Shown: in pieces, positions 1,107 through 46,560 of the stretch
Position numbering within the stretch: position 1 is the stretch's first letter
Layout: each line of letters begins with the position of its first letter
NCBI GenBank assembly: GCA_035624455.1
Contig: DASPRM010000047.1
Coordinates: 1-46,653, forward strand
Direction of reading: 5' to 3'
DNA: 46,653 bases
Origin: Terriglobales bacterium
Lineage (GTDB): Bacteria > Acidobacteriota > Terriglobia > Terriglobales > Acidobacteriaceae
Position numbers and translations under genes: made by a program
The notes under the pieces: model-generated
What the model was told of the DNA's origin: nothing
The model's database searches: none
What the model saw: the letters and a program-made list of their open reading frames with translations, nothing else

Positions 1107-1180
1107 GCAAAGCAAATGTAAGAGTTTTGAGCTGGAAGTCCGGCGCGGGAAGCGCACGGGCTAAGAGCTTGGAGGTCGTG

Positions 1181-2623
1181 ATGAAAGGTCGTTTGAGTTC
1201 GACCGTCTGGTTGACCGTAGGCATGAACGCCCTGGCGCTGTTCGGCGTGCTGGGTCTTGCCTATGTCGCCGGACAGAAGTCAGCCGCGCAAGGCGGAGGC
1301 GTCGGGATCGAGATGATGGCTGCGATTGGTGCGGCCGTCGTCATGACCGTGATTCTGGCGTCCTCGCTGAGCGGCAAGCTGATAAAGCCGGTGGAAGACT
1401 TGACCCATTTCACCGAACGCATGGCGGCTGGCGATGACAGCGTGCGCCTGGACGCCACCGTGTCCAATGAGTTCGGCCTGATTGCCCAGAACTGGAACCG
1501 TGTGGCGGACAAGATGTCGCGCGCCGGCCGCGACCAGGGGGCGCAAGACTCACTGCAGCGCAGCGTCACCGAGTTCCTGACCATCGTCAGCCAGATTGCG
1601 CGCGGCGACTTGACCCTGCGCGGCAAAGTCACCAACGACGCGCTGGGCAACGTGGTCGACTCCGTCAACTACATGCTCGACAACTTCTGCCGCGTGCTGG
1701 AGCGGGTACGCAAGGGCGCCGTCGATGTGCAATCGAGCGCCAGCGAAATCCTGGTCTCCGCAGAAGACATGGCCAGCGGCGCCAGCCAGCAGGATCAGGA
1801 GATCACCAATACGTCATCGGCGGTGGAAGAGCTAACGGTCTCCATGAAGCAGGTGTCCAACAACGCTGAGGCCAGCGCGGAAGCGGCGCGCCGGGCGCTG
1901 GATGCTGCCGAACAGGGAAACCGTTCCGTGCGCGACACCCTCGACGGCATGCAGCGCATTCGGGCCTCGGTGCAGGCTACGGCGAAGAAGATCAAGTCGC
2001 TGGGTGACCGCTCGCTGGAAATTTCCGAGATCGTTAACGTCATCAACGACATTACCGAGCAGACCAACTTGCTGGCCCTGAATGCTGCGATCGAAGCGGC
2101 GCGCGCGGGAGAGGCAGGACGTGGCTTTGCGGTTGTCGCCGACGAAGTGCGCAAGCTTGCCGAGCACTCACGCAGCGCTACCAAAGACATTGCCGGACTG
2201 ATCAAAGCCATCCAGGCGGAGACCAACGAAGCGGTGGTGGTGATGGAAGACGGCACGCGGGAGGTGGAAGTTGGCGCCAAGCTGGCCGACCAGGCGGGTA
2301 AGGCCTTGGAAGCCATCTCCAGTGTGGTGCGTCAGTCGGCAGAGTTGGTGCAGGAGATCTCGCTGGCTTCCAAACAGCAGGTGCGTGGAACGGAGGGCGT
2401 GGCCAATGCCATGCAGATCATCTCCAGCATTACGCGGCAGACATCGCAGGGAGCTCGCCAGACCACGCACACTGTGGAACGCATGGTGAAGCTCTCGGAA
2501 CAACTGAACGAAGCGCTGTTTCAGTTCAAGATCAACCAGCATCCGGCCGGTGGCGGTCCACCCGCGGCGGCCTCACCCGAAGTGGCGGTCGCAGGCCGTA
2601 ACGGAGGAGGCGTCCGCGCCTGA
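1181..2623 (+). CDS. Methyl-accepting chemotaxis protein, PilJ-like, with minimal periplasmic part
   Basis: A 480-residue receptor. Two hydrophobic segments (about 8-30 and 43-62) are separated by only about 12 residues, so there is essentially no periplasmic ligand domain. They are followed by HAMP (about 63-115), a second HAMP-like module typical of PilJ (about 130-185) and a long cytoplasmic signalling coil whose hairpin tip contains [20 protein letters not shown]. The ATG at 1181 is preceded by GGAGG (1171-1175); the frame is open upstream to 1127 but the protein would then start with an odd polar stretch. It should form arrays with CheW and CheA. PilJ of Pseudomonas has a real periplasmic domain, so the signal sensed here may be membrane-borne or cytoplasmic. 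Confidence 0.9.
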
Positions 2624-2649
2624 TTAATCTCTGCGGGAGTGGGTAGCGC

Positions 2650-3543
2650 TTGATTACCAGGCAACAAAACGTGATCCCGATGCTCAGCGAGCATGAACTC
2701 GAGGAGATTCGCGCGCTCATTGAGCGGCGCGCCGGGCTGCTCTTCGATCAATCGCGTGATCGGTTCTTCCATTCCCGTATCCGCGAGCACATGACCTGCA
2801 GAAAGCTGGTCCATGGGCAGGACTTGTTGCGCATCCTGAAGACTTCCAACCTGGAGTACGAAGCCCTACTGGAAACGCTGCTCACGCAGGAGACCTCATT
2901 TTTCCGCTATCCGCACGTCTTTGAGGCTTTGGAGAAGAGAGTTCTGCCGGAAATCCATGTGAAGAAGTTCTGGGAGAATCCGCGCACCCTGCGATTATGG
3001 TGCGCGGGCTGCGCTACCGGAGAAGAGGCATACTCCATTGCCATTACCCTGGCCGAAGCCCTGGACTTCACTGAAGGCTGGAATCTGCAGATCCTGGCTA
3101 CCGATATCAGCCGCCGTGCTCTGGAGCACGCTGAACGCGGGGTGTACTCACGGCGCGCCTTGGGCGAACTGACGCCCAAGCAGGTGGAGTCCCACTTCGC
3201 CAAGGTAGGCGACCAATTCCTGATCAAACCTCGTATCCGCAACATGGTGACTTTCGTTCCCATGAACCTGGTGGATGGCGTGTACCTGCGCCGCTACGAC
3301 GCCATCTTCTGCATGAATGTCCTCATCTATTTCTCTGATGAGCAACGCGTCGGGGTGATTCAGCGCCTGCACGATTCACTGGAGCCCGGTGGTTACATGT
3401 TTCTGGGCCACGCGGAATCGATCGCCGGTGTGAACGTCAAGTTTGAAAGCGTTGTTCATCGCGATGCCCGGCTCTACCTGAAGCCGATGAACGGCACGGT
3501 ACGCTTTGCCTCCAGTATCGGAGTTGGGGAGGAATCGGTTTGA
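2650..3543 (+). CDS. cheR: CheR-type chemoreceptor glutamate methyltransferase (PilK-like)
   Basis: A 297-residue SAM-dependent methyltransferase that adds methyl groups to receptor glutamates. Visible are the CheR N-terminal helical domain, the TSFFR motif before the catalytic domain, the SAM-binding stretch LWCAGCATGEEAYS and the NVLIYF motif near the end. The start is uncertain: TTG 2650 has a G-rich stretch upstream, while GTG 2671 and ATG 2680 are in-frame alternatives. The stop overlaps the cheA start by four bases (TTGA), indicating translational coupling. Its target should be the MCP encoded immediately upstream, opposed by CheB at 6761. Confidence 0.92.
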   Translation: MITRQQNVIPMLSEHELEEIRALIERRAGLLFDQSRDRFFHSRIREHMTCRKLVHGQDLLRILKTSNLEYEALLETLLTQETSFFRYPHVFEALEKRVLPEIHVKKFWENPRTLRLWCAGCATGEEAYSIAITLAEALDFTEGWNLQILATDISRRALEHAERGVYSRRALGELTPKQVESHFAKVGDQFLIKPRIRNMVTFVPMNLVDGVYLRRYDAIFCMNVLIYFSDEQRVGVIQRLHDSLEPGGYMFLGHAESIAGVNVKFESVVHRDARLYLKPMNGTVRFASSIGVGEESV

Positions 3544-6500
3544 GCACGTCGGGATCCGAGTTCATCGAAGTGTTTCTGGAGGAGGCTTCCCAGCATCTCC
3601 AGTACCTGCGTGAGTACTGCAACATCCTGCAGGATCCCTACCCGGTTCCGGCGGAACTCGACCGGCTCTACGTTGCTGCCCACACCCTGGTAGGCTCGTC
3701 CGCCATGTATGGGTACCCGCTGTTCTCTGAAGTGTCGAGCAAGCTGGCTCACATTTTTCAGTATGCGATGAACGCAAGCATCAGCGCGGAAGCTTCCGGT
3801 CCCCTGGTCGAGTTCATCTCCGAAGCGGTAGCGGTGCTCGAGTCCGATCTCCTGATGATCAGCAGCGATCACGCCGAGGCTCAGGATGAAATCGATGCCT
3901 TCAGGCAGAAGTATCCGTTTGCATTCCAGGGGGCAACGACCGTCAAGGCAAACGACGGCCAGGAAGAAACAGCGGCAGGTGTTTCGGCCCAAACTCATCC
4001 AGAGATAGCCGAGCCCTCAGGCGATGATCTGCTTTCGCCTGACCTGCCGCCCGATGGCGAGGTAGCGGGCGAGGTGATGGAATTCTTCGTGCCTGAGGCC
4101 GAAGAACACCTGCAAACCGTAACCGACTGCCTGCTGGCGCTCGAAGCCAACCCGCGCAGCGAAGACATTCACCGGCTCTTCCGCGCCATGCACACCATCA
4201 AGGGTTCGGCGGCGCAGGTCGGACTCCAACGCATCTCGCGTGTCGCGCATCGGGCGGAAGACCTGATTGGGCGGCTGCGGGATGGCGCCCTCGAGCCCAG
4301 TCCGGAGATCGTCGATCTCTGCCTGGAAGCAGCCGATACGCTCAAAAAGTTTCTTTACCGGCAGTGGCCCGACGAAAGCACGCTGCAGAGCTCAGTCAAA
4401 TCTCTGCTGGCACGCATCGCTCGCCTGGTCCCTGAAGAAGAACCTGAACAAGAAGAGGTAGCGGAGGGATCTCAGGCAAGTACAGCCGCCGTGGCCGAAA
4501 GCACTGGCCCGCAGGAGATTCACGCCGAAGAGCTGCACATCGACGAACCCGGATGGGAGCCGGAGGGCACAAAAGAATCGGAAGGTGAGTCTGAGGGTGA
4601 AGTGCTGGTAGCTGCCCCGTCGGCGGCCGCCACGCCTACGGCGCTCGTTCCAGCCCCGCCGACCACAGATGACGAAGATCCAACCCGTGGCTTCCGCAAC
4701 CCTGCGGCGGCGCCCGCCTCAAAATCGGTACGCATTGCACTGGAACGGCTCGATCGCATGATGAATGCGGTTGGCGAACTGGTGATCAACCGCACGCGCA
4801 TGCTGGGCCGGTTAGCAGAACTCGAGCGCCTGGCCGACGTTTTGAACTTCTCCAAGGCTCGACTAATCGACAAAATAACCGAGTTCCAGGAAAAATACGA
4901 ATTTAACCGGCTTCCCCATGGCCAGGCCTCCCGGCTTGCCGCTGGGCCGCCGATGTTTACTCCAGCAGGTGGCGACGGCAGCTTTGCCCGCTCGTTGGGC
5001 TGGCACCCCGCGGAGAGCTATCCCTTCCGCGGTGGATACTCGAGTTATTCCCGCAGCTTTGACCCTGCACTGGCCGAGTTCAGCGATCTGGAGATGGACC
5101 GCTACGACGAGTTCAACATCCTTTCCCGCTCGCTCACGGAAATCTCGGCCGACATCACCGAGGTTCTCAGCCAGCTCGACGGTTTTGTGCGCCGCGTGGA
5201 CGGTGATATCGACGAGTTCACCAAACTGGCACACCGCCTGCAGGACGAAATAACACAGGCCCGCATGGTGCCGATTGGCAACCTCTACACGCGCATCGCC
5301 CGCACGGCGCGCGATGCCGCCAAAGCGGCTAACAAACTGATCGAGTTGCAGCTGGAGGGCGCCGAGACCGAACTGGACAACAACATCATCCAGCAGATCG
5401 CAGATCCTCTGCTGCACCTGGTGCGCAACGCCGTTGCCCACGGTATCGAGCGTCCCGACGAGCGCTACGATAACGGCAAGCCTGACCACGGCAATGTCGC
5501 CGTGCGCGCCTACCATCGCGGCAACCACATCTACATCGAGGTGGAAGACGACGGCCGCGGCATCGACTACAACAAAGTGCGCAGCACCGCGGTGGAGCTG
5601 GGGCTGGTCACCTACGAACGAGCGTCCCAGCTCAGCGAACGTGAGCTGCTGGAATTGCTCTTCCATCCGGGATTCTCAACCGCGCCGCGAAAATCGGAGC
5701 TGGCGGGCCGTGGCGTCGGGCTCGATGTAGTCCGCTCGAACCTTACCGCCCTGAACGGCGAGATCGACATCGATACTCAGCAGGGTCTGGGGACACGCTT
5801 CACGTTGAAAGTGCCGCTGACGCTTATCATCTCGCAAGCCTTGTTCGTGCGCTGCGGCAATATGCAGTTCGCCTTCCCGCTCTCTTTTGTGGAGGAAATC
5901 CGGCGGCTGCGCAGCCAGGAAATCGAAGAGATTGGCGGCAAACTCCTGACCAAGGTTCGCGACGAAGTCACCGAAGTCGTCCGGCTGGACAAAGAGCTCG
6001 GCCTGGACCCGATTGAGCCGATCAACGGCTTTTTCCGCATGGTAATCGTCAGTGCAGGTGGCCGGCAGGTCGGAATCGTGGTTGAAGAAGTACTCCGCAA
6101 AGACGAGATCGTCATCAAGAGCCTGGGCGAGTATCTGCGCAACGTGAAGCTCTTCCCAGGGGTCACCATCGCGCCCGAAGGCAGCTTGATCCTGCTGATC
6201 GACCTGAACCGGCTGATCGCCGGCGAATCGATTGAGCGCAAACCGTTGATGTTGTCGGCAGCCGCAGCACGGGTCTTTGCTCCAGGTGCCATCGCAGTGG
6301 CGGCGGGAGAAATTCCGTCCGAGGTAATGGCCCCAGTGCCAGACGAGAAGATCATCGTCCTGGCCGATGACTCCATCAGCGTCCGCAAGTTCGTGGGCCG
6401 CATGCTGGAGAAGGCTGGCTATCGCGTGAAGCTGGCGGCCGATGGCCTGGAGGCTTTGGAATTAATCGCACAGGGCCGCTGCGATCTGGTCATTACCGAT

Positions 6501-6758
6501 TTGGAGATGCCGCGCACCAATGGCTACGAGTTGATGATGCATCTCCGGCAGAATCCCACGACCCAAAGCATTCCAGTGCTGGTCGTCACCTCGCGGGCTG
6601 GCGCCAAGCATCGCGAGCGTGCCATCAGCGAAGGCGCGACCGCATTTCTGGTGAAGCCGGTGCAGGAAGATCAGTTGATCAGCAGCGTGGCCCAGCTATT
6701 AGGAGCAAGTCTGACGAGTCCGGCCGAGTCATCCGAGCAGGTGCCGGCCAGCAATTAG
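3540..6758 (+). CDS. cheA: Hybrid chemotaxis histidine kinase CheA (ChpA-like) with C-terminal receiver
   Basis: 1072 residues. An N-terminal Hpt-like domain has H48 in HTLVGSS, where the usual Lys is Val. A canonical Hpt has H218 in HTIKGSA. An acidic Pro/Ala-rich linker (about 265-390) leads to an extended P3 dimerisation region (about 393-600) with a Gly/Tyr/Phe-rich insert. The P4 ATPase shows N630 in the N box, DDGRGID, and RGVGLDVV. A CheW-like P5 spans about 755-895 and a receiver about 937-1055 with acceptor D987. The TTG start is supported by GGGGAGGA at 3526-3533, six bases away. The architecture is a reduced ChpA, which in Pseudomonas carries more phosphotransfer domains. It phosphorylates the regulators of this operon and probably its own receiver. 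Confidence 0.94.
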   Translation: MSTSGSEFIEVFLEEASQHLQYLREYCNILQDPYPVPAELDRLYVAAHTLVGSSAMYGYPLFSEVSSKLAHIFQYAMNASISAEASGPLVEFISEAVAVLESDLLMISSDHAEAQDEIDAFRQKYPFAFQGATTVKANDGQEETAAGVSAQTHPEIAEPSGDDLLSPDLPPDGEVAGEVMEFFVPEAEEHLQTVTDCLLALEANPRSEDIHRLFRAMHTIKGSAAQVGLQRISRVAHRAEDLIGRLRDGALEPSPEIVDLCLEAADTLKKFLYRQWPDESTLQSSVKSLLARIARLVPEEEPEQEEVAEGSQASTAAVAESTGPQEIHAEELHIDEPGWEPEGTKESEGESEGEVLVAAPSAAATPTALVPAPPTTDDEDPTRGFRNPAAAPASKSVRIALERLDRMMNAVGELVINRTRMLGRLAELERLADVLNFSKARLIDKITEFQEKYEFNRLPHGQASRLAAGPPMFTPAGGDGSFARSLGWHPAESYPFRGGYSSYSRSFDPALAEFSDLEMDRYDEFNILSRSLTEISADITEVLSQLDGFVRRVDGDIDEFTKLAHRLQDEITQARMVPIGNLYTRIARTARDAAKAANKLIELQLEGAETELDNNIIQQIADPLLHLVRNAVAHGIERPDERYDNGKPDHGNVAVRAYHRGNHIYIEVEDDGRGIDYNKVRSTAVELGLVTYERASQLSERELLELLFHPGFSTAPRKSELAGRGVGLDVVRSNLTALNGEIDIDTQQGLGTRFTLKVPLTLIISQALFVRCGNMQFAFPLSFVEEIRRLRSQEIEEIGGKLLTKVRDEVTEVVRLDKELGLDPIEPINGFFRMVIVSAGGRQVGIVVEEVLRKDEIVIKSLGEYLRNVKLFPGVTIAPEGSLILLIDLNRLIAGESIERKPLMLSAAAARVFAPGAIAVAAGEIPSEVMAPVPDEKIIVLADDSISVRKFVGRMLEKAGYRVKLAADGLEALELIAQGRCDLVITDLEMPRTNGYELMMHLRQNPTTQSIPVLVVTSRAGAKHRERAISEGATAFLVKPVQEDQLISSVAQLLGASLTSPAESSEQVPASN

Positions 6759-6760
6759 CA

Positions 6761-7885
6761 ATGGAGCTTGGACCCAAAACTCGGGTGCTGGTTGTCGATG
6801 ACTCCACCTTCATGCGCAAGGTGTTGCAGAGCATCATCACTGCCGATCCGCAGATGGAGGTGATTGGGGAAGCCCGCGATGGGCGAGAGGCGGTGGCGAT
6901 GGCGGACTCGCTGCGTCCCGACGTGGTCAGCATGGACATCATGATGCCCCACGTCGATGGCTTGCAAGCGACGCAGATGATCATGTCGAAGAATCCGCGG
7001 CCGATCGTAATTGTCAGCTCGGAAACCAAGGAAGGCGCTGACATCACGCTCAAGGCGCTCGAACTGGGGGCCATCGATTTTGTTCCCAAGCCGGTCAGCG
7101 GCATCGATCTCGACATGCAGCATCTGCGCGACGAGCTGTGCCGGAAGCTGAAGGTTGCATCACGAGTGCGGGTTATCCGCACCATCACGCGCAGCGGCGC
7201 TAAGCCACCGGCGGCTTCTTCCTATTCGGAAGGCAAGTTCACGCCCAGCGAGGCGAGTTCGCAAGTCAGTCTTCTCGCCAGTGGAAATGCCAAATTCCCC
7301 ATCGTCGTGGTGGCGGCTTCCACTGGAGGGCCGCAGATGCTAATGCAATTCGTTCCCGCATTACCGAGAGACTTCGGGGCCGCTGTTCTTCTCGTGCAAC
7401 ACATGCCGGGAACCTTCACTGCGCAGTTTGCCAAGCAGTTGGCTGAGGTCTCCGCGGTACGTGTGAAAGAGGCGGAAAACAATGACCCGCTACAACCGGC
7501 CAGCGTCTATGTCTGCCCGGGAGCACGGCACATGAGAGTCATGGCCAATGGACGCCTGTCAATCGAGGGTGGCGAGCGGATCAACGGCTACCGACCTTGC
7601 GCCGATGTCGCCATGGAGACCGCGGCCACCTACGCCGGTCCCATGACGATAGCAGTTGTCCTGACTGGAATGGGAGCAGACGGTTCCAAAGGGGTACAGG
7701 CAGTAAAGACTGCCGGAGGGCATGTCATCGCGCAGGATGAAGTTACTTCGGTAATTTTCGGAATGCCCGCAGAGGCGATAAAAACCGGAATGGTGGATCA
7801 GGTGCTGGCCATTGACGCCATCATGCCCGCCATCGAGAAGCGCATCCTCTATTTAATGGGCGCTGCGGAAGTAGGTGTAGTGTGA
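6761..7885 (+). CDS. cheB: CheB protein-glutamate methylesterase/deamidase (ChpB-like)
   Basis: A 374-residue two-domain enzyme. The receiver (about 7-125) has D59 as phospho-acceptor. After a serine-rich linker (about 140-178) comes the methylesterase domain with the catalytic triad S187 (ASTGGP), H214 (QHMPG) and D307 (GMGADG). It removes methyl groups from the receptor when phosphorylated by CheA, opposing CheR. It starts with ATG two bases after the cheA stop and its own stop overlaps the next start (GTGA). All catalytic residues are present, so adaptation by methylation should work in this system even though the receptor has little periplasmic domain. Confidence 0.95.
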   Translation: MELGPKTRVLVVDDSTFMRKVLQSIITADPQMEVIGEARDGREAVAMADSLRPDVVSMDIMMPHVDGLQATQMIMSKNPRPIVIVSSETKEGADITLKALELGAIDFVPKPVSGIDLDMQHLRDELCRKLKVASRVRVIRTITRSGAKPPAASSYSEGKFTPSEASSQVSLLASGNAKFPIVVVAASTGGPQMLMQFVPALPRDFGAAVLLVQHMPGTFTAQFAKQLAEVSAVRVKEAENNDPLQPASVYVCPGARHMRVMANGRLSIEGGERINGYRPCADVAMETAATYAGPMTIAVVLTGMGADGSKGVQAVKTAGGHVIAQDEVTSVIFGMPAEAIKTGMVDQVLAIDAIMPAIEKRILYLMGAAEVGVV

Positions 7886-8409
7886 GGATTGGCCGGCTGC
7901 AAAGGCGGAGCCTGCTGGCTACCCATCAGGGCGAGGCCGCGATTCTGTTCTCGGTGGCTGGATACGTGTTCGCCATCTCCGCCAGCGGGGTCGCCGAAAT
8001 TCAGAGCCTGCGCGAGCTTAAGCCGCTGCCATTTGCAAGATCGAGCACACTGAATAGCAAAGTTAAATACATCCTGGAACGCGAGTGCGGGACCTATTTC
8101 GTGGTGGACGCTCATCATCACTTCCATCTTCCTCAGGCGCAAAGCACGCGCGTTCTGCTGTTGCGCGACTCGCGCGTAGCTCTGAAAGTGGACGCCATTG
8201 AGCGCATGACGGAAATCGAGACTCTGCTTCCCTTGCCAGCCGCGTTTCAAGGGCAAGAGCGCCAGTGGTATCGCGGGTTGGCGCTGATCGGCAATCAGGT
8301 CGTGCCGGCCGTCAATACCGCTTCTTTTCTAAGCCGCTTCGAGCAGAGGGCGCTGGAGCGAGCGCTGTCACCGGCGAAATCTGTCGAACGTGCGGGAGTG
8401 CTGGCATGA
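7882..8409 (+). CDS. Divergent CheW-like protein (ChpC-like position)
   Basis: A 175-residue protein with a diverged CheW-like fold: an opening strand AAILFSVAGYVFAIS and VAEIQSLRELKPLP resemble the CheW core, but the usual GxxNLRG loop is replaced by a segment rich in His (AHHHFHLP). It starts with a GTG that overlaps the cheB stop by four bases, and its stop overlaps the next ATG by four bases. In Pil/Chp systems a second CheW homologue (ChpC) follows the esterase, so this position fits. Whether it binds CheA, the receptor or another partner cannot be told from sequence. Confidence 0.72.
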   Translation: MRIGRLQRRSLLATHQGEAAILFSVAGYVFAISASGVAEIQSLRELKPLPFARSSTLNSKVKYILERECGTYFVVDAHHHFHLPQAQSTRVLLLRDSRVALKVDAIERMTEIETLLPLPAAFQGQERQWYRGLALIGNQVVPAVNTASFLSRFEQRALERALSPAKSVERAGVLA

Positions 8410-8852
8410 AAGATGCTGCCGTCACCGCCTTCGTACTGTTTCCCTTGGGAGAGAAGCGCTTTGCTTTTCCTGCGGATCAGGTGAGCGAGCTGGCGCGCGC
8501 TGACCAGTTACAGGATTTCCCTCACACCTCTCCATGGCTGACTGGCGTTCTCGTGCGACGGGGAAATGTGGTTCCGGTGTGTGACATCGCGCAGGTACTG
8601 GTGCCGGGAACTACAGCGCCACGCAGGTTCTACCTGATTGCCAAGCGGCGGTTCGGCTCAACCGAGGAGGATACTGGCATCCCGGTCAGCGGGGATTGCG
8701 AGTTGGCGGTCACAGAGATGCTGCCCGTAACCGGCAAGCTGCCCAACTACGCCGCTGGTGTGCTCTCTCTCGAGTCCGAGATCGTAGAAGTAATCGATCT
8801 GGAGAAATTATTGTCGAGCGATGCCGCAACTACTGCCGAGGTGGAGCGATGA
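8406..8852 (+). CDS. CheW-like adaptor, third copy in operon
   Basis: A 148-residue single-domain CheW homologue: FVLFPLGEKRFAFPADQVSE at the start, then a GVLVRRGNVVPVCDI loop that matches the CheW core, and a C-terminal VIDLEKLL strand. The ATG at 8406 overlaps the preceding stop (ATGA), and the next ATG overlaps its own stop (ATGA), so it is tightly coupled on both sides. With two other CheW-type proteins in the operon, different adaptors may link different receptors to one kinase, or fill CheW-only rings in the array. That division of labour is inference. Confidence 0.82.
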   Translation: MKDAAVTAFVLFPLGEKRFAFPADQVSELARADQLQDFPHTSPWLTGVLVRRGNVVPVCDIAQVLVPGTTAPRRFYLIAKRRFGSTEEDTGIPVSGDCELAVTEMLPVTGKLPNYAAGVLSLESEIVEVIDLEKLLSSDAATTAEVER

Positions 8853-9628
8853 CCACTAGTACGGCGGCGGGCATCGGAAAAATTCTAATCATCGACAGCA
8901 ACGTCTTTTTTGCCAAACGCCTGGCCCACGCGCTTGAGCAGCAGGGATTTGAGGTGCTGCACAGTCCGGACACGGCGTACGCCATGACCATGCTGGAATG
9001 GAACACGCCGGACGCCATCGTTTGCGCCACCAATATGCGCGAGCTGGGAGCCTACGAAATCGTTCCCATCCTCCACGGAGACGCCAAGACTGCCCACATT
9101 CCGATCGTCGCACTAGGTGAAAGCGGAGAGAAGAGTCTGATGGCTGCCTTCCGCGCCGGCTGCGATGACTGTGTCGACCGTAAGCTGGGTCCGGAAAATA
9201 TTGCTGCCCACCTGCGCACGTTCCTGCGCAGCCGCGAAGAAGGCTTCCACCCAACGCAGATGCTGGAAAGCTCCGTAACCGCGATGGAAGGGAGCCTCTC
9301 GCATCTCGACCTGCCTGGCGTGATCCAGATGCTGCAGCATTCGCGTCAGACAGGATCGCTGCACATCAATGCCGGCGACACGGATGGAATCATCATTTTT
9401 GATGGCGGGCAACTCACGCATGCCGAGAGCGGCGAACTCATCGGCGACGATGCCGTGCTGCAGATCGTGAAGAACTGCAATCGTGCCGAGACGGGAGTCT
9501 ACAAGTTCATTCATGGCTATGCGCCTTCTACCCGCACCGTGTTGCGATCGGCTACCGAGTTGATGCTGCAGGCGCTGCGCGAAATTGATGAAGAAGAGCA
9601 CGGCAACGAAGAAGAGGTACTGTTTTGA
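8849..9628 (+). CDS. Pseudo-receiver fused to PATAN (DUF4388) domain
   Basis: A 259-residue protein. Residues 10-130 have a CheY-like pattern but the phospho-acceptor is missing: the stretch DAIVCATNM places A60 where Asp should be, and the first acidic pair is reduced to D16-S17. Residues about 145-250 form a PATAN/DUF4388 domain, beginning GSLSHLDLPGVIQMLQHSRQ with TGSLHI following. In cyanobacteria, PATAN response regulators act in pilus-based phototaxis, which fits this operon. It probably transmits a signal by binding rather than by its own phosphorylation. The ATG at 8849 overlaps the upstream stop, and the stop overlaps the next TTG. Confidence 0.85.
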   Translation: MTTSTAAGIGKILIIDSNVFFAKRLAHALEQQGFEVLHSPDTAYAMTMLEWNTPDAIVCATNMRELGAYEIVPILHGDAKTAHIPIVALGESGEKSLMAAFRAGCDDCVDRKLGPENIAAHLRTFLRSREEGFHPTQMLESSVTAMEGSLSHLDLPGVIQMLQHSRQTGSLHINAGDTDGIIIFDGGQLTHAESGELIGDDAVLQIVKNCNRAETGVYKFIHGYAPSTRTVLRSATELMLQALREIDEEEHGNEEEVLF

Positions 9629-10476
9629 GTGCGCCCACCGTGTATTTCATCGACGATAGCGCCACCATGCGCGAGGTCATCAAGATTGCGTTCCGCCGCG
9701 AGAACATTGATGTGGTGGCCTGTCACGATGGGGATGCCGCTATCAATCAAATGCGCGAGGCGCCGCCGGATGTGGTCATCAGCGACGTGATCATGCCGGG
9801 CAAAGACGGATACGACGTCTGCCAGCTGATCAAGCAGAATCCGGCGACGGCTAACACCCCCGTCGTGCTGATGTCGGGCGTGGTGAACCGTAGCGTGGCG
9901 GAGAAGGCGTTCGCCGTTAAAGCGGACGAGTTGATTCGCAAGCCCTTCCAGCCCCAGGATCTGATTGCCCGGGTGAAGCATCTGCTGCAGCCCAAGGAGA
10001 AAGACAAGAGGACAGAACTCTCGGTCGCCGGCCGAAACGGGCAGGTGGTCGCAAACGCAGGAGCCTCGGCGGCACTCAGCAGCATCTTTGCCGGTCCCGC
10101 CAATGGCGGGAGGGCTGCGACAAGTCCTTCCGCGGCCGGGGGAGGTGTGCCGGGCACAATTTCGGCGCGCTTTGGCATTCCGGTTCCACCCGTCAGCACT
10201 CCAGCACCGGGTCCAGTCGTCGCTCCTGAGAGACCTGCAGTAGCGCCCGCAGTTGCACCTCCACCAGCAACTGTTACACCTTCGCCGCCGAGTGTTTCGG
10301 CAGCAACCGCATCCGCGCGGTCGCAGGTGTCCGCTTCGTCAGATGTAGCCAAACTGCGGATTGAGATTTTGCGGCTGGAGAATCTGGTCAAGAAGTTGCA
10401 TTCCGAATTGCAGGCCGAGCGCGAGTACGCGCGGGCCCTCGAGGAGCACGTAAAGACGTTACAAGAAACCGAGTGA
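9625..10476 (+). CDS. Response regulator with Pro/Ala-rich linker and C-terminal coiled coil
   Basis: 283 residues. The receiver (1-122) is intact: D10-D11, phospho-acceptor D54 (VISDVIMPG) and K106 (RKPF). A low-complexity linker rich in Pro, Ala, Val and Thr (about 130-235) leads to a strongly charged heptad-like coiled coil (about 240-283, LRIEILRLENLVKKLH onward). There is no DNA-binding or enzymatic output domain. TTG at 9625 overlaps the preceding stop by four bases and no better start exists. The coiled coil suggests dimerisation or docking to a filament or pole-localised partner; this is inference. It is the last gene of the operon. Confidence 0.85.
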   Translation: MSAPTVYFIDDSATMREVIKIAFRRENIDVVACHDGDAAINQMREAPPDVVISDVIMPGKDGYDVCQLIKQNPATANTPVVLMSGVVNRSVAEKAFAVKADELIRKPFQPQDLIARVKHLLQPKEKDKRTELSVAGRNGQVVANAGASAALSSIFAGPANGGRAATSPSAAGGGVPGTISARFGIPVPPVSTPAPGPVVAPERPAVAPAVAPPPATVTPSPPSVSAATASARSQVSASSDVAKLRIEILRLENLVKKLHSELQAEREYARALEEHVKTLQETE

Positions 10477-10696: not shown

Positions 10697-11989
10697 TCAT
10701 GGCGCTTGACCTCGCGCCCGCACCGCCAAGGCCAGCCACGCCGCCACTAGATATCCGACTACCAGAAGCATCAAGCCGGGCGTGAAGGAATGAGTTCGCG
10801 AGCTAAGATATCCAAGCGCGAAGGGTCCCACAAATCCACCCAGGTTGCCCACAGCATTAATCAGGCCTACTGAAGCTGCCGCTGCAGCATCGCTCAGCAC
10901 GGCAGTAGGCATCGCCCAAAACGCCGGGAGACTGGCTTCTATGCCACAGGCGACGAGCGTGAACAGACCAACCGTGAACCACAGCTTCGGGTTGAGCAAA
11001 CCCGCAAGAAGCAGGCCGATTCCACAAAGAAGAAGCGGAACCGCTGTATGCCAGCGGCGCTCGCCGGTGTAATCGGAATGCCACCCATTCAGCTGCATCG
11101 CAACCAGCGCCACCAGGTAGGGAATGGCGGTGAGCAGGGAAACTCTCAAGTTACTGCCTCCCGAACTCCGCTTAAGAATGGTCGGCAACCAAAAGGCGAG
11201 CGCATAGTTTCCGGCTACCAGGAAGAAATACAGCACAGTGAGAAGAATCACATCGCGATCTTTGAATGCCTGGGTGATGCTGGAAGAACGGTCCGCCTGT
11301 TTGGCTGCCTTCTCCCGTTCGAGTTCACCTGCAATCCAGGCGCTCTCCTGGGCGCTCAACCAGCTGGCCTGATGTGGCCAATCGGTCAGATAGAAGATGG
11401 TAATGATGCCAATCACGATCGCCGGAATCCCCTCCAGGATGAACAGCCAGCGCCAGCCGCTCAGGCCGAGCCAATGGAATCCCAGGATCCATCCTGCCAG
11501 TGGTGTACCGATCACGAACGAAACCGGAATGGCAGCGATAAAGTTGGCCAGTGCCTTGGCACGGTCGCGCGCGGTGAACCAGTGCGTGAGATAGACGACT
11601 ATGCCGGGAAAGAATGCCGCCTCAGCGGCTCCCAGGAGCAGACGGAGCAGGTAAAACTGAGGAGCAGTCCGGATTGCAGCCGTGAATATTGTGATCACTC
11701 CCCAGGAGATCATCATGAAGCTGATGATCCGCCTTGCGCTGCGCAACTCCACCATCAGAGCGCCCGGAATCTGCAGCACAAAATAACCAAGAAAGAAGAT
11801 GCCCGACCCCAGGCCGATCACGCGCTCATCAAAACCAAGTTCTCCCGGCATTTGCAATGCTGCCATGCCGATATTCGTGCGGTCGATGAAGGCCACGATG
11901 AAGAGCACCAGCAGAAACGGCAAGAGCCGCCAAGCTATGCGGTGGCGGGCGCTCTGAGCGATTTCAGGAAGGGCGGTTGTGCCGGCCAT
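10697..11989 (-). CDS. MFS transporter, anion:cation symporter (ACS) family
   Basis: A 430-residue integral membrane protein with twelve likely transmembrane segments, a central hydrophilic loop (about residues 195-230, ending EREKAAKQADRSS) and the family signature region DRTNIGMAALQMPGELG in the first loop. ACS-family members (ExuT, GarP, tartrate and phthalate carriers) import organic acids with protons. The substrate cannot be assigned because no catabolic genes are adjacent. The ATG at 11989 is the first start that includes the initial amphipathic stretch. A TATACT box on the minus strand (12007-12012) may be its -10. It lies 131 bases downstream of uvrB on the same strand. Confidence 0.88.
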   Translation of the reverse strand: MAGTTALPEIAQSARHRIAWRLLPFLLVLFIVAFIDRTNIGMAALQMPGELGFDERVIGLGSGIFFLGYFVLQIPGALMVELRSARRIISFMMISWGVITIFTAAIRTAPQFYLLRLLLGAAEAAFFPGIVVYLTHWFTARDRAKALANFIAAIPVSFVIGTPLAGWILGFHWLGLSGWRWLFILEGIPAIVIGIITIFYLTDWPHQASWLSAQESAWIAGELEREKAAKQADRSSSITQAFKDRDVILLTVLYFFLVAGNYALAFWLPTILKRSSGGSNLRVSLLTAIPYLVALVAMQLNGWHSDYTGERRWHTAVPLLLCGIGLLLAGLLNPKLWFTVGLFTLVACGIEASLPAFWAMPTAVLSDAAAAASVGLINAVGNLGGFVGPFALGYLSSRTHSFTPGLMLLVVGYLVAAWLALAVRARGQAP

Positions 11990-12120
11990 AATCGAAGCGG
12001 CTCGGTAGTATAGATCGCCGCAACATAAAGCAGGAGTTGCAACTGCTGGACTGAAGCGAACGGAGTGGGGCGTCTCAAGAAATCAAAGCTCGCAAAGAAT
12101 CTGTATAACTGGGTGAGAGT

Positions 12121-14109
12121 TTATGCGAAGAGGAACTCTTTCGTGCGCAGGTCCTTGATCATGTCGCGCAACTTGGCAGCTTTTTCGAATTCAAAACGCT
12201 TTGCTGCCTCGCGCATATCGCTTTCCAACTTTGCGATGTATGCGTCGAGTTCTTCCTGGTTTTTAAATTCAGGAATGCCTTCAGCCTGATCGGTAAGATC
12301 CGTGTAGTCGGCTTCAACAATGGCTGCCAGCGACATCTGTAGCGGCCGCGAAATCGACTGCGGGGTAATACCGTTTTGCTCGTTGTAGGCCTGCTGAATC
12401 GCGCGGCGGCGCTCAGTCTCGTCGATTGCTTTGCGCATGGAGTCGGTCATCGTGTCCGCGTAAAGAATCGCGCGACCGTTCAGATGCCGGGCGCAGCGCC
12501 CGATGGTCTGGATCAGTGAGCCAGAGGAGCGCAGGAATCCTTCTTTGTCGGCATCGAGAACGGCTACCAACGAAACCTCCGGTAGATCAAGACCCTCGCG
12601 CAGCAGATTGATTCCGATCAGCACGTCGAACTCGCCTTTTCGCAGATCGCGCAGAATCTTGACTCGCTCCAGAGTTTCGATTTCCGAATGCATATAGCGG
12701 CAGCGTACGCCGACCTCGCTGTAATACTCCGCCAGGTCCTCGGCCATACGCTTAGTGAGCGTTGTGACCAGCACCCGTTCCTTGCGCTGCGCGCGGTCGC
12801 GGATTTCGTGCAGCAAATCGTCAATCTGGCCTTTCACTGACCTAACTTCCACTTCTGGATCCACCAGGCCCGTAGGACGGATAATCTGCTCGACCACTTC
12901 CCCCGCTGATTTGGTCAATTCGTAAGGGCCAGGGGTCGCTGAAACATAGATCGCCTGATTCACCCGATGCTCAAATTCTTCGAATGTCAGCGGACGATTA
13001 TCCAGCGCCGAAGGTAAGCGAAAGCCGTACTCAATCAGTGTGGATTTGCGGGAGCGGTCCCCGTGCCACATTCCGTGTAACTGAGGAATGGTTTGGTGGG
13101 ATTCATCGATAAATAGCAGGTAATCGCGAGGAACATAATCCAGCAACGTCGGCGGAGGTTCGCCCGGCAGACGTCCTGTGAAGTGACGCGAATAGTTTTC
13201 AATGCCGTGGCAGTAGCCGACCGACTTGATCATCTCCAGATCGAAGCGGGTGCGCTGGTGGACACGCTGCGCTTCCACCAGCCTGCCCTGTTTTTGCAAT
13301 TCGCCTTCCCACCATGCAAGCTCTTCCAGAATGGAGTCAATGGCGCGCTTTTTGGTTTCGGGCTTCATCACGTAATGCGATTTTGGATAGATCGGCAGCC
13401 GCAGGTAGCGTTGCTTGACGGTAGCGAATAGCGGGTCGATTTGAGACAGCGACTCAACCTGATCTCCCCACAATTCGATGCGATAAGCGAAATCGTCATA
13501 GGCGGGAAAGACTTCTATCACATCACCGCGCACACGGAACGTACCGCGACGCAATTCGCCGTCTGAACGTTCATAAAGAATTTCTACCAGCTTGCGGAGA
13601 ATATCCTCGCGTTTGACCTGCTGTCCCTTTTCCAGAAAGAGCAGCATCCCGTAGTAGGCCTCGGGCGAGCCGAGGCCGTAAATGCAGGACACAGAGGCGA
13701 TGATGATGCAGTCTCGCCGCTCGAATAGCGATTTGGTTGCCGACAGACGCAGTTTGTCGAGTTCATCATTAATCGTCGCTTCCTTCTCGATGTACACATC
13801 TCCGGAAGGAATGTAGGCCTCGGGCTGGTAATAGTCGTAATAGGATACGAAATACTCCACGGCATTCCTGGGGAAGAAGCTCTTAAATTCGTGGTAGAGC
13901 TGTGCGGCAAGCGTCTTGTTGTGGGCCAGGACGAGGGCCGAACGATTCACGGCTTCGATCACCTTCGCCATGGTGTAAGTCTTACCCGAGCCCGTAACCC
14001 CAAGCAGGACCTGGTGCTTCTCGCCTTCGAGCGCGCCGCGAGTCAGGGAGGAGATGGCTTCTGCCTGATCGCCCTGCGGGCTGTAGTCGGAATGAAGCTT
14101 GAAATCCAT
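12121..14109 (-). CDS. uvrB: UvrABC system protein B, excision nuclease helicase-like subunit
   Basis: 662 residues, the normal length. It begins [15 protein letters not shown], which matches the start of other UvrB proteins, so ATG 14109 is preferred over GTG 14133. Visible: Walker [14 protein letters not shown], the Y-rich beta-hairpin region [10 protein letters not shown] used for damage verification, [10 protein letters not shown] (Walker B), the helicase motif QTIGRCARH, and the UVR domain near the C-terminus that contacts UvrC. It verifies damage loaded by UvrA and recruits UvrC in nucleotide excision repair. No uvrA or uvrC is adjacent, which is normal. No LexA-type operator was recognised upstream. 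Confidence 0.97.
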
Positions 14110-43185: not shown

Positions 43186-45636
43186 ATGAGACCACAGGGA
43201 GCCCTGGCTGTCTTGATTATCGTCATGGCAGCCGTTTCGCCCCTCCATGCCGACAAGGCATACTCTGCTTACAAGCAGGGGGTTGATGCCGAGGCGCGTG
43301 AGAAATATGACGAGGCTTTAGCAGACTACAAGCAGGCTTACGACCTCAAACCTGCCGACATAAGATACAAAGCTGCATACACGCGAATGCGGTTCTACGC
43401 TTCTACGGCCCATGTGCATCAGGGTCAGTTGCTACACGAACAGGGCAAGCTAACGGAAGCGCTGGCCGAATTCCAGCGTGCGGCGGAAATCGATCCCTCC
43501 AGCTTCATAGCCCAGCAGGAAATTCGCAAGACGAAGGCAGAGATCGAGTCGGGTAAGACAGCACCCGCTCCGCCTCCAGCGCCGCCACCCCAGTCTTCCC
43601 TGGAGCGTATCGTGCAGGAGGCTGAAGGACCGGTCGAGCTGAAGCCGATCTCCAACGCACCCATCAATCTGCGAATGACCGAAGATACCAAGGTCATTTA
43701 CACCACGATTGGTAAGCTGGCGGGAATCAATGTGTTGTTTGATCCTGACTACACTTCGCGCCGCATCACGATTGAACTGAATAACGTAACCCTGAACCAG
43801 GCGCTGCAGATCGTGGCACTGGAGTCGAAGACATTCTGGCGGCCGGTCACATCCAATACGATTTTCATCGCCTCCGATACTCAGGCCAAGCGTAAGGAGT
43901 TGGAACAGAGCGTCATCAAGACGATCTATCTCTCTAACGTGTCCACTCCCAATGATCTGCAGGATATGGTGAACGCAATCCGTACCATTCTGGATGTGCG
44001 GCAGGTGCAGCAGATCGCGTCGCAAAATGCCATCGTTCTGCGCGGCACCCCGGATCAGGTGGCGGTGGCGGAAAAACTGGTCTCCGACATCGATAAAGCT
44101 AAGCCCGAGGTATTGGTGGAAGTGGCGGTCATGCAGGTGAGCCGGAACCTGACACGCACTCTGGGTATCAATCCCCCGACGTCGGCGACCGTACAGTTGC
44201 AATCGAACGTGACCACTACTACCAACACGACGACTGCATCTTCGCAGGGAAGCACAACAACTCCGGCCACAATCACCTCCGGCACAAGCACGAATCTTAC
44301 GCTCAACGATCTTGCCAATCTGAATGCCAAGAACTTTGCGGTGACGATACCGCCGGCGACAATTTCGTTCCTGCTGACGGATGCCCATACGAAAATCATC
44401 CAGAATCCTCAAATTCGCGCCCTGGACAATCAGAAAGCCACACTCAAGATTGGCGATCGTGTGCCAGTAGCGACGGGATCGTTCCAGCCGGGCATCGGGG
44501 GTGTCGGAATCAACCCCCTGGTCAACACGCAGTTCCAGTATTTGGATGTCGGGGTGAATGTGGACATCACGCCGCATATCCATGCCGGCAGAGAAGTGAC
44601 GCTGAAGATGACGCTGGAAATCTCGTCGGTGACGGGAAGTTCGAATATTGGCGGAATTCAGCAGCCCACGATCGGGCAGCGCAAGATCGAGCACGAGATC
44701 CGGCTGCGAGAGGGAGAGACCAACCTGATCAGCGGGTTTCTGGAAGATTCCGACGTGACTTCGCTGAGCGGCTATCCCTGGCTGTCGAAGATTCCGATCC
44801 TGAAATACTTCTTTGCGCAGGACCAGAAGACGCGGCAGGAGAATGAGATTGTTTTTGCGGTTACACCACACATCGTTCGCGCCCAGGATGTGAGCGAGCT
44901 GAACCTGCGGCCACTGGATGTAGGCACGGCGAATTTCATCGGCTTGAGGCACGCATCGGCGCCGCCGCCGCCGTCGCCGACCGGACAACAACCCGGAGGA
45001 GGGGCGGCGACGAGCGCCAATCATAATGGGGTGGCGCCGTCCGCGGCTCCGCAACCCCCGGCTCCTCCACAACCCGCAGCGGCTCCGCAGACTCCTCCGC
45101 CAGCGGCGACCGCGCCACCCCCGGCGCAAAACAACCAGGCGGTCGCACCTTCGACTACGGTCGCGGCTGCGACGCCGACGGTACCCCCCAACGGTTCAGC
45201 CCCGGCGAGTCTCTCCACGGGAAGTGCAGTGATGAGCTTCCAGCCAGCCAACATCTCGGCTAACTCTGGCCGGACGTTTATGGTGAATGTCAGCATGAGC
45301 GGGGCGGAGAATGTTTACGCCGTGCCGGCACAAATCACCTACGATCCAAAATTGCTGCAGCTGGTGAATATCTCGAGCGGCGATTTCCTGAGCAAGGACG
45401 GGCAGGCAGTGGCGCTGGTGCATCGTGATGATGCCACATCGGGGACGGTACAGGTGACGGCTACACGTCCGCCTGGTTCAGGAGGAGTAGGTGGCACCGG
45501 GGCGGTGTTTACGTTGACGTTCATGGCGCGCGGGCCGGGGCAGGCAGTATTGAACATCAACAGAGTGCAGGCACGCGATCCGAATAACCAGGCGATCCCA
45601 GTAGTGGGCGGTCAGGCAATGGTGAGCGTCCGGTGA
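43186..45636 (+). CDS. Secretin (GspD/PilQ-like) with N-terminal TPR and C-terminal cohesin domain
   Basis: 816 residues. Signal peptide 1-22 (ALAVLIIVMAAVSPLHA). Two to three TPR units (about 25-110). An STN/secretin N0 domain (about 160-232, INLRMTEDTKVIYTTIGKLA). An N1/NolW domain (about 240-310). The secretin channel domain (about 400-575) contains the VPV gate region and ends SGYPWLSKIPILKYFF. A Pro/Ala/Gln-rich linker (about 590-680) joins a cohesin-type domain (about 681-816, SFQPANISANSGRTFMVNVS). AGGGG precedes the ATG by five bases. It forms an outer-membrane pore for a type II secretion or type IV pilus-like system; the cohesin end is an unusual extra that could bind partners. Confidence 0.9.
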   Translation: MRPQGALAVLIIVMAAVSPLHADKAYSAYKQGVDAEAREKYDEALADYKQAYDLKPADIRYKAAYTRMRFYASTAHVHQGQLLHEQGKLTEALAEFQRAAEIDPSSFIAQQEIRKTKAEIESGKTAPAPPPAPPPQSSLERIVQEAEGPVELKPISNAPINLRMTEDTKVIYTTIGKLAGINVLFDPDYTSRRITIELNNVTLNQALQIVALESKTFWRPVTSNTIFIASDTQAKRKELEQSVIKTIYLSNVSTPNDLQDMVNAIRTILDVRQVQQIASQNAIVLRGTPDQVAVAEKLVSDIDKAKPEVLVEVAVMQVSRNLTRTLGINPPTSATVQLQSNVTTTTNTTTASSQGSTTTPATITSGTSTNLTLNDLANLNAKNFAVTIPPATISFLLTDAHTKIIQNPQIRALDNQKATLKIGDRVPVATGSFQPGIGGVGINPLVNTQFQYLDVGVNVDITPHIHAGREVTLKMTLEISSVTGSSNIGGIQQPTIGQRKIEHEIRLREGETNLISGFLEDSDVTSLSGYPWLSKIPILKYFFAQDQKTRQENEIVFAVTPHIVRAQDVSELNLRPLDVGTANFIGLRHASAPPPPSPTGQQPGGGAATSANHNGVAPSAAPQPPAPPQPAAAPQTPPPAATAPPPAQNNQAVAPSTTVAAATPTVPPNGSAPASLSTGSAVMSFQPANISANSGRTFMVNVSMSGAENVYAVPAQITYDPKLLQLVNISSGDFLSKDGQAVALVHRDDATSGTVQVTATRPPGSGGVGGTGAVFTLTFMARGPGQAVLNINRVQARDPNNQAIPVVGGQAMVSVR

Positions 45637-45670
45637 TGTACGAAGGCTCACCAAAGGCTAAAATGTTTGT

Positions 45671-46135
45671 ATGAGGAGATCAGCAGCAAGGGGCGGGGAA
45701 AGCGGGCTGACTCTGGTTGAGCTGATCGTCGCGATCACGATCCTGATGGTCCTTACCGGAGCAGCGTTGCCGCTCGCGCGAGTGACGGTTCGCCGGGATA
45801 AGGAACGGGAGCTGCGGCGGGATCTGTGGCAGCTACGGGACGGTATTGACCGTTACAAGGACGCCGGTGATCGGGGTATGTTCCAGGTCAAGCTCGGGAC
45901 AGAGGGCTACCCGCCAGATCTGGAAACACTGGTAAAGGGCGTGGACGTTGGTGGGAAGAAGGTTCGATTTTTGCGCAGCATCCCGGTAGATCCCATGACG
46001 GGCAAGGCAGAGTGGGGATTGCGCTCGATGCAGGACGATCCTAAGAGTGATTCCTGGGGCGGACAAAACGTCTTTGACGTCTACAGCAAGTCTGAGGATA
46101 CCGCTCTGGATGGGACGCGATACTCGGAATGGTAA
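45671..46135 (+). CDS. GspG-like pseudopilin 1
   Basis: 154 residues. A type III prepilin signal is present: basic leader ending GGESG, then LTLVELIVAITILMVLTGAA. Position +1 is Leu instead of the common Phe and the conserved E5 is present, so cleavage and methylation by PilD-type peptidase are expected after G12. The C-terminal part (IPVDPMTGKAEWGLRSM, SWGGQNVFDVYS) follows the GspG pattern. It starts 34 bases after the secretin stop and its last 7 bases overlap the next gene. It should build the pseudopilus that works with the secretin. Confidence 0.9.
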   Translation: MRRSAARGGESGLTLVELIVAITILMVLTGAALPLARVTVRRDKERELRRDLWQLRDGIDRYKDAGDRGMFQVKLGTEGYPPDLETLVKGVDVGGKKVRFLRSIPVDPMTGKAEWGLRSMQDDPKSDSWGGQNVFDVYSKSEDTALDGTRYSEW

Positions 46136-46560
46136 AGCGGAATAAAAATCGCAAGGGTAGTGTCGGCGCGCACGCGCGCCAGCGTGGCTTCACGCTTATC
46201 GAATTGATGGTGGTAATCAGCATCATTCTGATCCTCATTTCAGTGGCTGTTCCCATCTACAATCAGTCCATCGTTCATGCGCGAGAAGCGGTGCTGAAGC
46301 AAAATCTATTCACCCTGCGCAGTTGCATCGACCAGTACTCGCTGGATAAGCAAAAAGCGCCACAATCGCTCGATGACCTGGTGCAGGCGGGATACCTGAA
46401 AGAAATTCCTATGGATCCGTTTACCAACGCGCGCGACACCTGGCAAGTGGACCAGGAAGATGTGCTGCTGAGCGTGGATCAGAGCCAGCCCGGCATTACG
46501 GACGTGCATAGCGGGTCTAGTGCCACCGGCACGGACGGAACCGCATATAACACCTGGTAG
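46129..46560 (+). CDS. GspG-like pseudopilin 2
   Basis: 143 residues. Prepilin leader ends QRG, followed by FTLIELMVVISIILILISVA with F at +1 and E at +5. The globular end is IPMDPFTNARDTWQVDQED, close in plan to the first pseudopilin, so the pair probably arose by duplication. The ATG overlaps the end of the upstream gene by 7 bases (ATGGTAA), indicating coupling. Having two GspG-like proteins suggests a mixed pseudopilus or one acting as a minor pilin. The cluster may continue beyond the window. Confidence 0.9.
   Translation: MVKRNKNRKGSVGAHARQRGFTLIELMVVISIILILISVAVPIYNQSIVHAREAVLKQNLFTLRSCIDQYSLDKQKAPQSLDDLVQAGYLKEIPMDPFTNARDTWQVDQEDVLLSVDQSQPGITDVHSGSSATGTDGTAYNTW

Follow-up and report, generated by a model that had tools for sequence, protein, structure and literature searches.

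A cohesin domain on a T2SS-like secretin of Acidobacteriota as a candidate tethered docking arm

Dockerins are the usual partners of cohesins in cellulosomes, although not of every cohesin, and a cellulosomal scaffoldin carries several cohesins together with a carbohydrate-binding module or a wall anchor. To our knowledge, how T2SS machines recognize folded substrates is still an open question. Here, we ask what a single cohesin does at the end of a secretin encoded by a Terriglobales bacterium (Acidobacteriota). The window, that is, the whole stretch of DNA analyzed (46,653 nucleotides), is an entire contig that ends 93 bases past the second of two pseudopilin genes, PP1 and PP2, so that genes farther downstream are visible in relatives only. 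The 816-aa secretin frame is open throughout (43186 to 45633, with the stop reaching 45636; Table 1), the PP1 and PP2 genes overlap by 7 bases, and the gene spacing makes a common transcript for secretin and pseudopilins likely.

Table 1. Features of the cohesin-secretin cassette (positions in the window)
Feature	Position	Strand	Basis
TPR-secretin-cohesin gene, 816 aa	43186..45636	+	open frame, Pfam, AF2 model
Sec signal peptide, residues 1-22, without lipobox	43186..43251	+	by eye from sequence
TPR helices, residues 24-124	43255..43557	+	Pfam TPR; helices in AF2 model
N0-like domain, residues ~158-232	43657..43881	+	alpha/beta pattern in model, by eye
N1 domain (Secretin_N), residues ~240-307	43903..44106	+	Pfam below cut-off; model; GspD alignments from residue 241
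Secretin pore domain, residues ~308-566	44107..44883	+	Pfam Secretin 398-565; GspD 5zdh fold match
Disordered Pro/Ala-rich linker, residues ~592-677	44959..45216	+	low pLDDT; composition
Cohesin domain, residues 681-816	45226..45633	+	Pfam, AF2 model, fold searches, profile
Pseudopilin PP1, 154 aa, N_methyl, weakly GspG-like	45671..46135	+	profile matches; kept in relatives
Pseudopilin PP2, 143 aa, N_methyl, GspG-like	46129..46560	+	profile matches; kept in relatives

An initial annotation, made from the letters alone, had described a TPR-secretin joined through a Pro/Ala linker to a cohesin, and both Pfam and the AF2 model agree with that layout. In the pore protein, Pfam recognizes TPRs (best E 7.6e-10) and Secretin (E 1.3e-39, 136 bits versus a cut-off of 27.5), scores Secretin_N below its cut-off (E 2.4e-5, 24.9 bits versus 28.2), and matches neither N0 nor STN; the N0-like unit was recognized by eye in the model. 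A T2SS pore is expected to show domains N0-N1-N2-N3 and a GspD equivalog score. The model here has one N0-like and one N1-type domain, versus the N0-N1-N2-N3 of GspD, and the GspD profile scores below its equivalog cut-off (E 2.7e-43, 148.3 bits versus 351.35), as does PilQ below its own (121.8 bits versus 284.35). The nearest solved pores by sequence are GspDs; by fold, GspD 5zdh of ETEC (Z 16.5, 4.0 Å over 244 residues) is tied with phage pIV 7ofh (Z 15.7, 3.8 Å over 228 residues). The TPR units had also been taken to replace a pilotin or an AMIN domain. AMIN indeed has no Pfam match in this protein; the pilotin half is doubtful, since the TPRs are N-terminal and the known pilotins in the portions of PMC6532946 and PMC10499894 bearing on this bind the secretin C terminus.

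The C-terminal 136 residues are predicted to form a beta-sandwich (AF2 pLDDT 97.3), and Pfam places Cohesin (PF00963) at residues 688 to 785 with E 2.3e-10 and 41.3 bits versus a cut-off of 24.1. The best 50 Foldseek matches listed for the model were all cohesins or cohesin complexes. In VIA comparisons the best match was 2vo8 (Z 17.8, 1.8 Å over 126 residues), and 2xdh gave Z 17.2 and 1.8 Å over 123 residues, with sequence identities to such cohesins of 12 to 15%. A phmmer search of PDB sequences with this one cohesin returned nothing meaningful; unlike it, a profile of 110 cohesin rows did find matches there. Structure prediction of residues 681 to 816, suggested as a check on the cohesin call, thus gave a cohesin and no other fold, with the proviso that the fold-match lists contain cohesins and secretins and that the absence of other folds from them does not exclude those folds. 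By the model, this is a genuine cohesin.

Conservation in relatives was another check on the fusion, and it bore the fusion out: the cohesin is present in 111 of 118 unique homologues and missing in six (L108, L109, L111, L112, L143, and L159). Alignment A1 comprises 109 of the 118, leaving out those six, L039 (whose frame continues into PP1), L084 (with a longer tail), and L098 (interrupted by a contig end); the cohesin was found in both L039 and L084. All 110 aligned domains (the window plus 109 relatives) match Cohesin at E 0.01. L55, R81, G90, G92, and G105 are invariant among them, and D58, Q60, R67, P82, and P83 are kept in 103 to 106. Cohesin and secretin distances are correlated (Mantel r 0.925; largest of 200 shuffles, 0.226). 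The matches in all 109 aligned relatives and this correlation argue that the fusion is no chance event. The intervening linker, with pLDDT below 50 across most of its length, holds 21 Pro and 21 Ala in the 83 residues 598 to 680. Among the 109 relatives the linker region (570 to 680) ranges from 44 to 168 aa versus 133 to 159 aa for the cohesin, and such variable length beside a near-constant domain is as for a tether.

Across the phylum, a cohesin-fusion profile has matches in 95 of 149 genomes, and by sequence the fusion is an old, phylum-wide trait of Acidobacteriota. Of the six peptide patterns used to find loci L033 to L112, one came from the cohesin, and a cohesin match was the ground for picking 20 phylum loci, so that these sets are unable to measure how often the cohesin is absent. 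Twelve further loci were picked for absence of a profile match. Eleven of the tails were tested (all but that of L255), and seven gave a Cohesin match with an E of 0.1 or better, a single one passing the cut-off; the L248 tail had a sub-threshold match, and that of L249 had none at E 0.01. Separate genes in relatives had been named as a finding that would count against the fusion. No standalone cohesin gene was seen beside the pore, which favors it, while the six homologues without the domain do not.

Both pseudopilins carry N_methyl motifs over the Pfam cut-off, which upholds the reading of two pilins after the secretin. Their likeness to GspG is weak in PP1, at 18.3 bits, and moderate in PP2, at 46.1 bits, with both scores below the equivalog cut-off of 88.85. 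The window's lineage supplied 109 loci, or 101 unique ones after removal of 8 repeats; 31 of these exceed 20 kb, and the rest are short or at contig ends, where genes may be missed. PP1 is matched in 90 and PP2 in 89 of the 101. L082, L084, and L089 keep the cohesin tail with no PP1 match adjoining. A third pseudopilin-like protein, PP3, is conserved in the operons, and the copies tested had no N_methyl or pseudopilin profile match.

Which ATPase serves this pore was also asked at the outset, and the answer came from deeper relatives. ATPase queries had no match in the 101 unique lineage loci. Of the 20 phylum loci, 18 have GspE close to the cohesin-secretin, 16 have PP1, and 14 have PP2, usually in the order GspF-GspE-PilM-PilN...secretin-pseudopilins; L238 showed no platform gene within 20 kb, and the contig of L225 begins partway through the operon. 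L143, from the window's own class, has everything in one run (secretin-PP1-PP2-GspF-GspE-PilM-PilN-PilO/GspM-PilP-PP3). T2SSE and T2SSF are over the Pfam cut-off, and NCBIfam scores are 546 bits for GspE versus a cut-off of 630.25 and 308.2 for GspF versus 424. The window's genome carries a matching platform on contig C136, whose PilM-like gene is matched in 56 of 61 genomes, including all 46 of the good ones. From synteny in relatives, we infer that the operon has split in the window's lineage and that the pore cassette and the C136 platform belong together; a second GspF/GspE pair (contig C63) and a second TPR-secretin (contig C102) in this genome count against that pairing. The components by which a T2SS is recognized (secretin, GspE-type ATPase, GspF-type platform, and GspG-like pseudopilin) are all present, here on two contigs. 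As a separate observation, the cohesin is dispensable, which speaks against a docking arm: the complete operon of L143 includes a pore without a cohesin match, and five other homologues likewise lack the domain. Conversely, the tails of L082, L084, and L089 with no adjoining PP1 match also count against it.

A cellulosome-like role fits poorly. The initial annotation had suggested that the cohesin could hold dockerin-bearing enzymes. In the window's genome (97.7% complete), the best dockerin match has an E of 0.81 and none passes the cut-off; dockerins do so in 2 of 61 genomes, in one case adjoining a separate cohesin (G059:C117). We therefore reject a dockerin as the partner. Scaffoldin features are likewise missing from the pore protein: it holds the only cohesin of its genome, with no carbohydrate-binding module or wall anchor. 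With the usual partner missing, the cohesin probably docks something else; a divergent dockerin-like partner is possible.

We lean toward a T2SS-like pore whose tethered cohesin serves in the periplasm as a docking arm for a putative non-dockerin partner. The TPR-N0-N1-secretin protein would form the outer-membrane pore, and PP1 and PP2, with the GspF/GspE/PilM/N/O/P platform and a third pseudopilin-like protein from C136, would assemble a short pseudopilus in the periplasm to drive substrates through that pore. Suspended from the pore's C terminus by its long flexible linker, the cohesin would hang on the periplasmic side and capture a specific partner through its conserved surface, most likely a substrate or a protein of the system that resides in the periplasm or the outer membrane, and would not bind a classical dockerin. 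The periplasmic placement is a transfer from distant relatives, made because the C terminus of solved T2SS secretins lies on that side; in the relevant part of PMC6532946, pilotins bind the C-terminal S-domain, and the beta-lip and AHL are the sole parts thought to enter the membrane.

Secretion is suggested by what adjoins paralogous pores. Multicopper oxidases lie beside four of them (L111, L089, L108, and L112), and according to the section concerned of PMC3543383, Geobacteraceae need their T2SS, with pseudopilins PulG, OxpG, and TklG, to secrete OmpB, itself a multicopper oxidase. That Pul/OxpG system is, by description, the closest in outline, given two pseudopilins here plus a third pseudopilin-like protein. 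It differs in that no multicopper oxidase or other known substrate gene adjoins the window's cassette. A multicopper oxidase was rejected as the substrate of the window's system: a strict search (E 1e-40), using one such oxidase as query, gave a match in 1 of 61 genomes, which is not this one but G009, on the contig of L089. A bolder and tentative extension makes the cohesin a dockerin-free receptor that would recognize the machine's own substrates by a non-dockerin signal, throughout the phylum, with C-terminal loss or replacement in paralogues re-aiming cargo. If so, a whole phylum has used cohesins as receptors for secretion, and paralogous pores with a lost or replaced module, some beside multicopper oxidases, are aimed at other cargo.

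A rather unlikely alternative is that the cohesin assembles or anchors the pore, to peptidoglycan, the outer membrane, or an operon-encoded Ig-like lipoprotein, and so does the job of a pilotin or GspB/OutB. The C termini of secretins are where pilotins bind in the passages concerned of PMC6532946 and PMC10499894, a small Big_1/PKD lipoprotein-like gene follows PP2 in several phylum operons, and the window and its close relatives lack the lipobox of several deep relatives and would need another targeting aid. However, those deep relatives (L142, L145, L147, and L148) have lipobox and cohesin both. PP3 directly follows PP2, with no lipoprotein between, in L237, which has the cohesin, and in L248, with its sub-threshold tail. 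Six lipoprotein queries, which found each other only partly, had no match in the 109 lineage loci, L134, or the window. The Ig-like lipoprotein is not accepted as ligand, as its distribution over the loci does not follow that of the cohesin.

That the pore serves a type IV pilus-like surface filament rather than secretion is less probable still. In its favor, some of the platform genes resemble PilN/PilO, pili can be built by machines of this sort, and PilB- and PilT-like genes directly follow the operon in L233; yet a separate PilQ-type secretin with AMIN is encoded in the genome, along with PilN, PilO, PilB-/PilT-like ATPases, and N_methyl pilins, which favors secretion for the pore studied here, and the pseudopilins are GspG-like. 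Near the family's pores, PilT matches turned up in L159 and L233 only; the scan of the 20 phylum loci dropped pilus matches below 60 bits. A passive spacer with no specific ligand would suit the six homologues that do without the domain but is very improbable given polar residues kept (R81 in 110 of 110, D58 in 106, R67 in 104) beside a freely varying linker. Surface display of dockerin-bearing enzymes has a true cohesin fold in its favor and is scarcely credible, given the dockerin counts and the expected periplasmic position.

If the docking-arm reading is right, a conserved single-copy docking domain carried covalently on the pore gives a handle on T2SS substrate recognition, with a ligand retrievable by one recombinant domain. 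The cohesin fold would have moved from an enzyme-scaffold context into a secretion machine, and this throughout a large phylum of soil bacteria in which secretion has received little study. Our literature search found nothing uniting cohesin domain, secretin, and Acidobacteria, although an earlier mention of the fusion is possible and the architecture may already be listed in domain databases. A 2009 survey reportedly treated non-cellulosomal cohesins. Those of Archaeoglobus (2xdh) and of C. perfringens glycoside hydrolases (2vo8 and 2w1n), and the cohesin-like 2jh2, share the fold; they differ in sequence, as given above, and ours sits on a secretin in genomes mostly without dockerins. GspD/PulD shares the secretin domain, N1, and the 5zdh fold match but has no N-terminal TPR and ends in an S-domain where our protein has linker and cohesin. 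Type IVa PilQ shares the secretin and N0-N1 core, with partners that are partly PilN/PilO-like here, and differs by its AMIN domain and the PilQ score.

The C-terminal domain of the 816-aa pore protein is, on its predicted structure, a cohesin, as the initial annotation had proposed. Modeled alone from 110 sequences, the domain reached a pLDDT of 97.3 and a pTM of 0.88 (pLDDT 96 to 98 within the full-length model), and the best 50 rows of a Foldseek search with it consisted entirely of cohesins or their complexes (best E, 2.6e-12). In VIA comparisons, the model matched 2vo8 with Z 17.8 (1.8 Å, 126 residues) and the Archaeoglobus cohesin 2xdh with Z 17.2 (1.8 Å, 123 residues), and at the sequence level a 110-row profile of the domain retrieved cohesins from the PDB (best E, 3.9e-7). 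The pairing of the fused secretin with two pseudopilins, PP1 and PP2, also stands; the three genes are the last of the window, which is the whole of contig C47 from a 4.39-Mb genome (estimated completeness, 97.7%). At the other end (positions 1 to 10476), translations read by eye resemble a chemotaxis-type signaling cluster.

Features of the pore protein and adjacent pseudopilins
Feature	Position	Strand	Basis
Pore protein (816 aa)	43186-45636	+	Pfam TPRs, Secretin_N (below cut-off), Secretin, Cohesin
PP1 pseudopilin	45671-46135	+	Pfam N_methyl
PP2 pseudopilin	46129-46560	+	Pfam N_methyl
Pore protein, helices	residues 24-124		Full-length predicted model
Pore protein, N0-like unit	residues about 160-230		Full-length model, assigned by eye
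Pore protein, N1	residues 243-307		Full-length model
Pore protein, secretin pore region	residues about 308-566		Full-length model
Pore protein, low-confidence stretch (linker)	residues about 592-677		Full-length model

Conservation of the fusion in relatives held for 111 of 118 unique homologues read from their loci (109 aligned, plus L084 and L039) and failed for six with no cohesin match (L111, L108, L109, L112, L143, and L159); another, L098, is truncated at the edge of its contig. Every tail in the 110-row alignment (the window plus 109 relatives) has a Cohesin match at E 0.01, and cohesin and secretin distances are correlated across these sequences (r = 0.925; at most 0.226 in 200 shuffles). 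PF00963 matches at E 0.001 occur in 52 of 61 relatives' genomes, the source genome included (51 over cut-off), and in 1 of 14 control genomes. Phylum-wide, the cohesin profile matches 95 of 149 genomes, mostly within open frames of about 700 to 1,100 aa, and the secretin part alone matches 121 of 149 at E 1e-30, some of these being a shorter paralogue. Among 11 tails from profile-negative genomes, seven retain a Cohesin match with E no worse than 0.1, and one of these exceeds the cut-off. Our search of largely open-access literature found no published account of this fusion. In L039 (4968-7640), secretin, cohesin, and PP1 share a single open frame, through sequencing error or real fusion. The profile also matches short open frames (about 190 to 440 aa) on G065:C13, G184:C31 and C104, G126:C38, G146:C610, G157:C113, G128:C23, and G148:C17, among others.

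The window holds half of a T2SS-like operon that is split in this genome, because a putative platform lies on a second contig of the same genome, C136, and the operon is undivided in L143, a same-class relative, and in loci elsewhere in the phylum. C136 carries a GspF end, GspE, PilM-, PilN-, PilO-, and PilP-like genes (PilM_2 and PilN matches below cut-off), and a third, pseudopilin-like gene, PP3; synteny in relatives suggests that it matches the window's pore. Matches to the PilM-like gene of C136 were present in 56 of 61 genomes and in all 46 good ones. Within the window's lineage, the cassette runs smpB (on the opposite strand), secretin, PP1, PP2; SmpB was matched in 88, PP1 in 90, and PP2 in 89 of 101 unique loci. 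An ATPase gene following the pseudopilins, as envisaged initially, is not seen there (GspE, PilB, and PilT queries, like those for GspF and PilM, matched 0 of 101 loci) but does occur in L143, where secretin-PP1-PP2-GspF-GspE-PilM-PilN-PilO/GspM-PilP-PP3 form one run. In 20 loci from elsewhere in the phylum, the genes near the cohesin-secretin include GspE in 18, PP1 in 16, and PP2 in 14. Of the two GspE-less loci, L225 opens within the operon because its contig starts there, and L238 showed PP1 alone. In L143, T2SSF, T2SSE, and PilN exceed Pfam cut-offs, NCBIfam GspE, GspF, and GspM models match but under equivalog cut-offs, and PilM, PilP, and PP3 are named from likeness to C136 genes. The machine's gene set can be complete without the cohesin, as in the L143 operon, whose pore has none.

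The source genome also has a separate pilus set: on C124, PilN and PilO adjoin a secretin whose AMIN, N0, and Secretin_N matches exceed the cut-off; C33 has two T2SSE ATPases, PilB- and PilT-like; and C63 has two N_methyl pilins. C63 additionally bears a second GspF/GspE pair at its end (11124-13450; L135). A second TPR-secretin (C102:23677-25527; L132:8678-10528) has 616 aa and no cohesin; by eye it adjoins an NAD synthase-like gene, as does its counterpart in L095. Some paralogous pores (L082, L084, and L089) have a cohesin without neighboring pseudopilins.

By sequence, the solved pores nearest the window's secretin are T2SS GspDs; by fold, GspD 5zdh (Z 16.5; 4.0 Å, 244 residues) and phage pIV 7ofh (Z 15.7; 3.8 Å, 228 residues) are level. 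In T2SS secretins (PMC6532946), pilotins bind the C-terminal S-domain and membrane entry is thought limited to the beta-lip and an amphipathic loop. By analogy, the linker would begin on the periplasmic side, and we infer that the cohesin is a tethered periplasmic arm. Among relatives, the length of the linker region ranges between 44 and 168 residues, compared with 133 to 159 for the cohesin. Lipobox-like signal peptides occur on the secretins of deep relatives (L142, L145, L147, and L148 by pattern among 118; L143 and L146 by eye), whereas the window's is ordinary.

All 110 rows share cohesin residues L55, R81, G90, G92, and G105, and 99 to 106 of them keep D58, G59, Q60, R67, D69, P82, and P83; from strand order, this patch presumably lies on or near the sheet with which type I cohesins bind dockerin. 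The suggestion that the cohesin serves dockerin-bearing proteins fared poorly: no dockerin exceeded cut-off in the source genome, and 2 of 61 genomes have one. Because this usual ligand is missing, the cohesin most likely docks another partner, either a substrate or a machine component. A possible candidate is a lipoprotein-like Big_1/PKD protein, which had no match in the window's lineage. Its gene lies in several operons elsewhere in the phylum, 3' of PP2 in L221, L225, L226, L231, and L234 and in reverse orientation in L239. Adjacent cohesin and dockerin matches occur at G059:C117:8336-8887 (L163, L138; open frame of 625 aa given for both), with no secretin link.

Clues to cargo come from four loci in which a second TPR-secretin neighbors a gene for a multicopper oxidase; of these pores, that of L089 carries a cohesin, whereas those of L111, L108, and L112 lack one and end in a short Cys-containing tail. 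The Geobacteraceae Pul system, with the pseudopilins PulG, OxpG, and TklG, is needed for secretion of the multicopper oxidase OmpB (PMC3543383). The comparison supports protein secretion as a probable function of the pore family. At a strict threshold, no multicopper oxidase matched in the source genome. Large secreted-looking proteins also adjoin the paralogous TPR-secretin in L111 (2-9493, minus strand), L112, L108, and L089.
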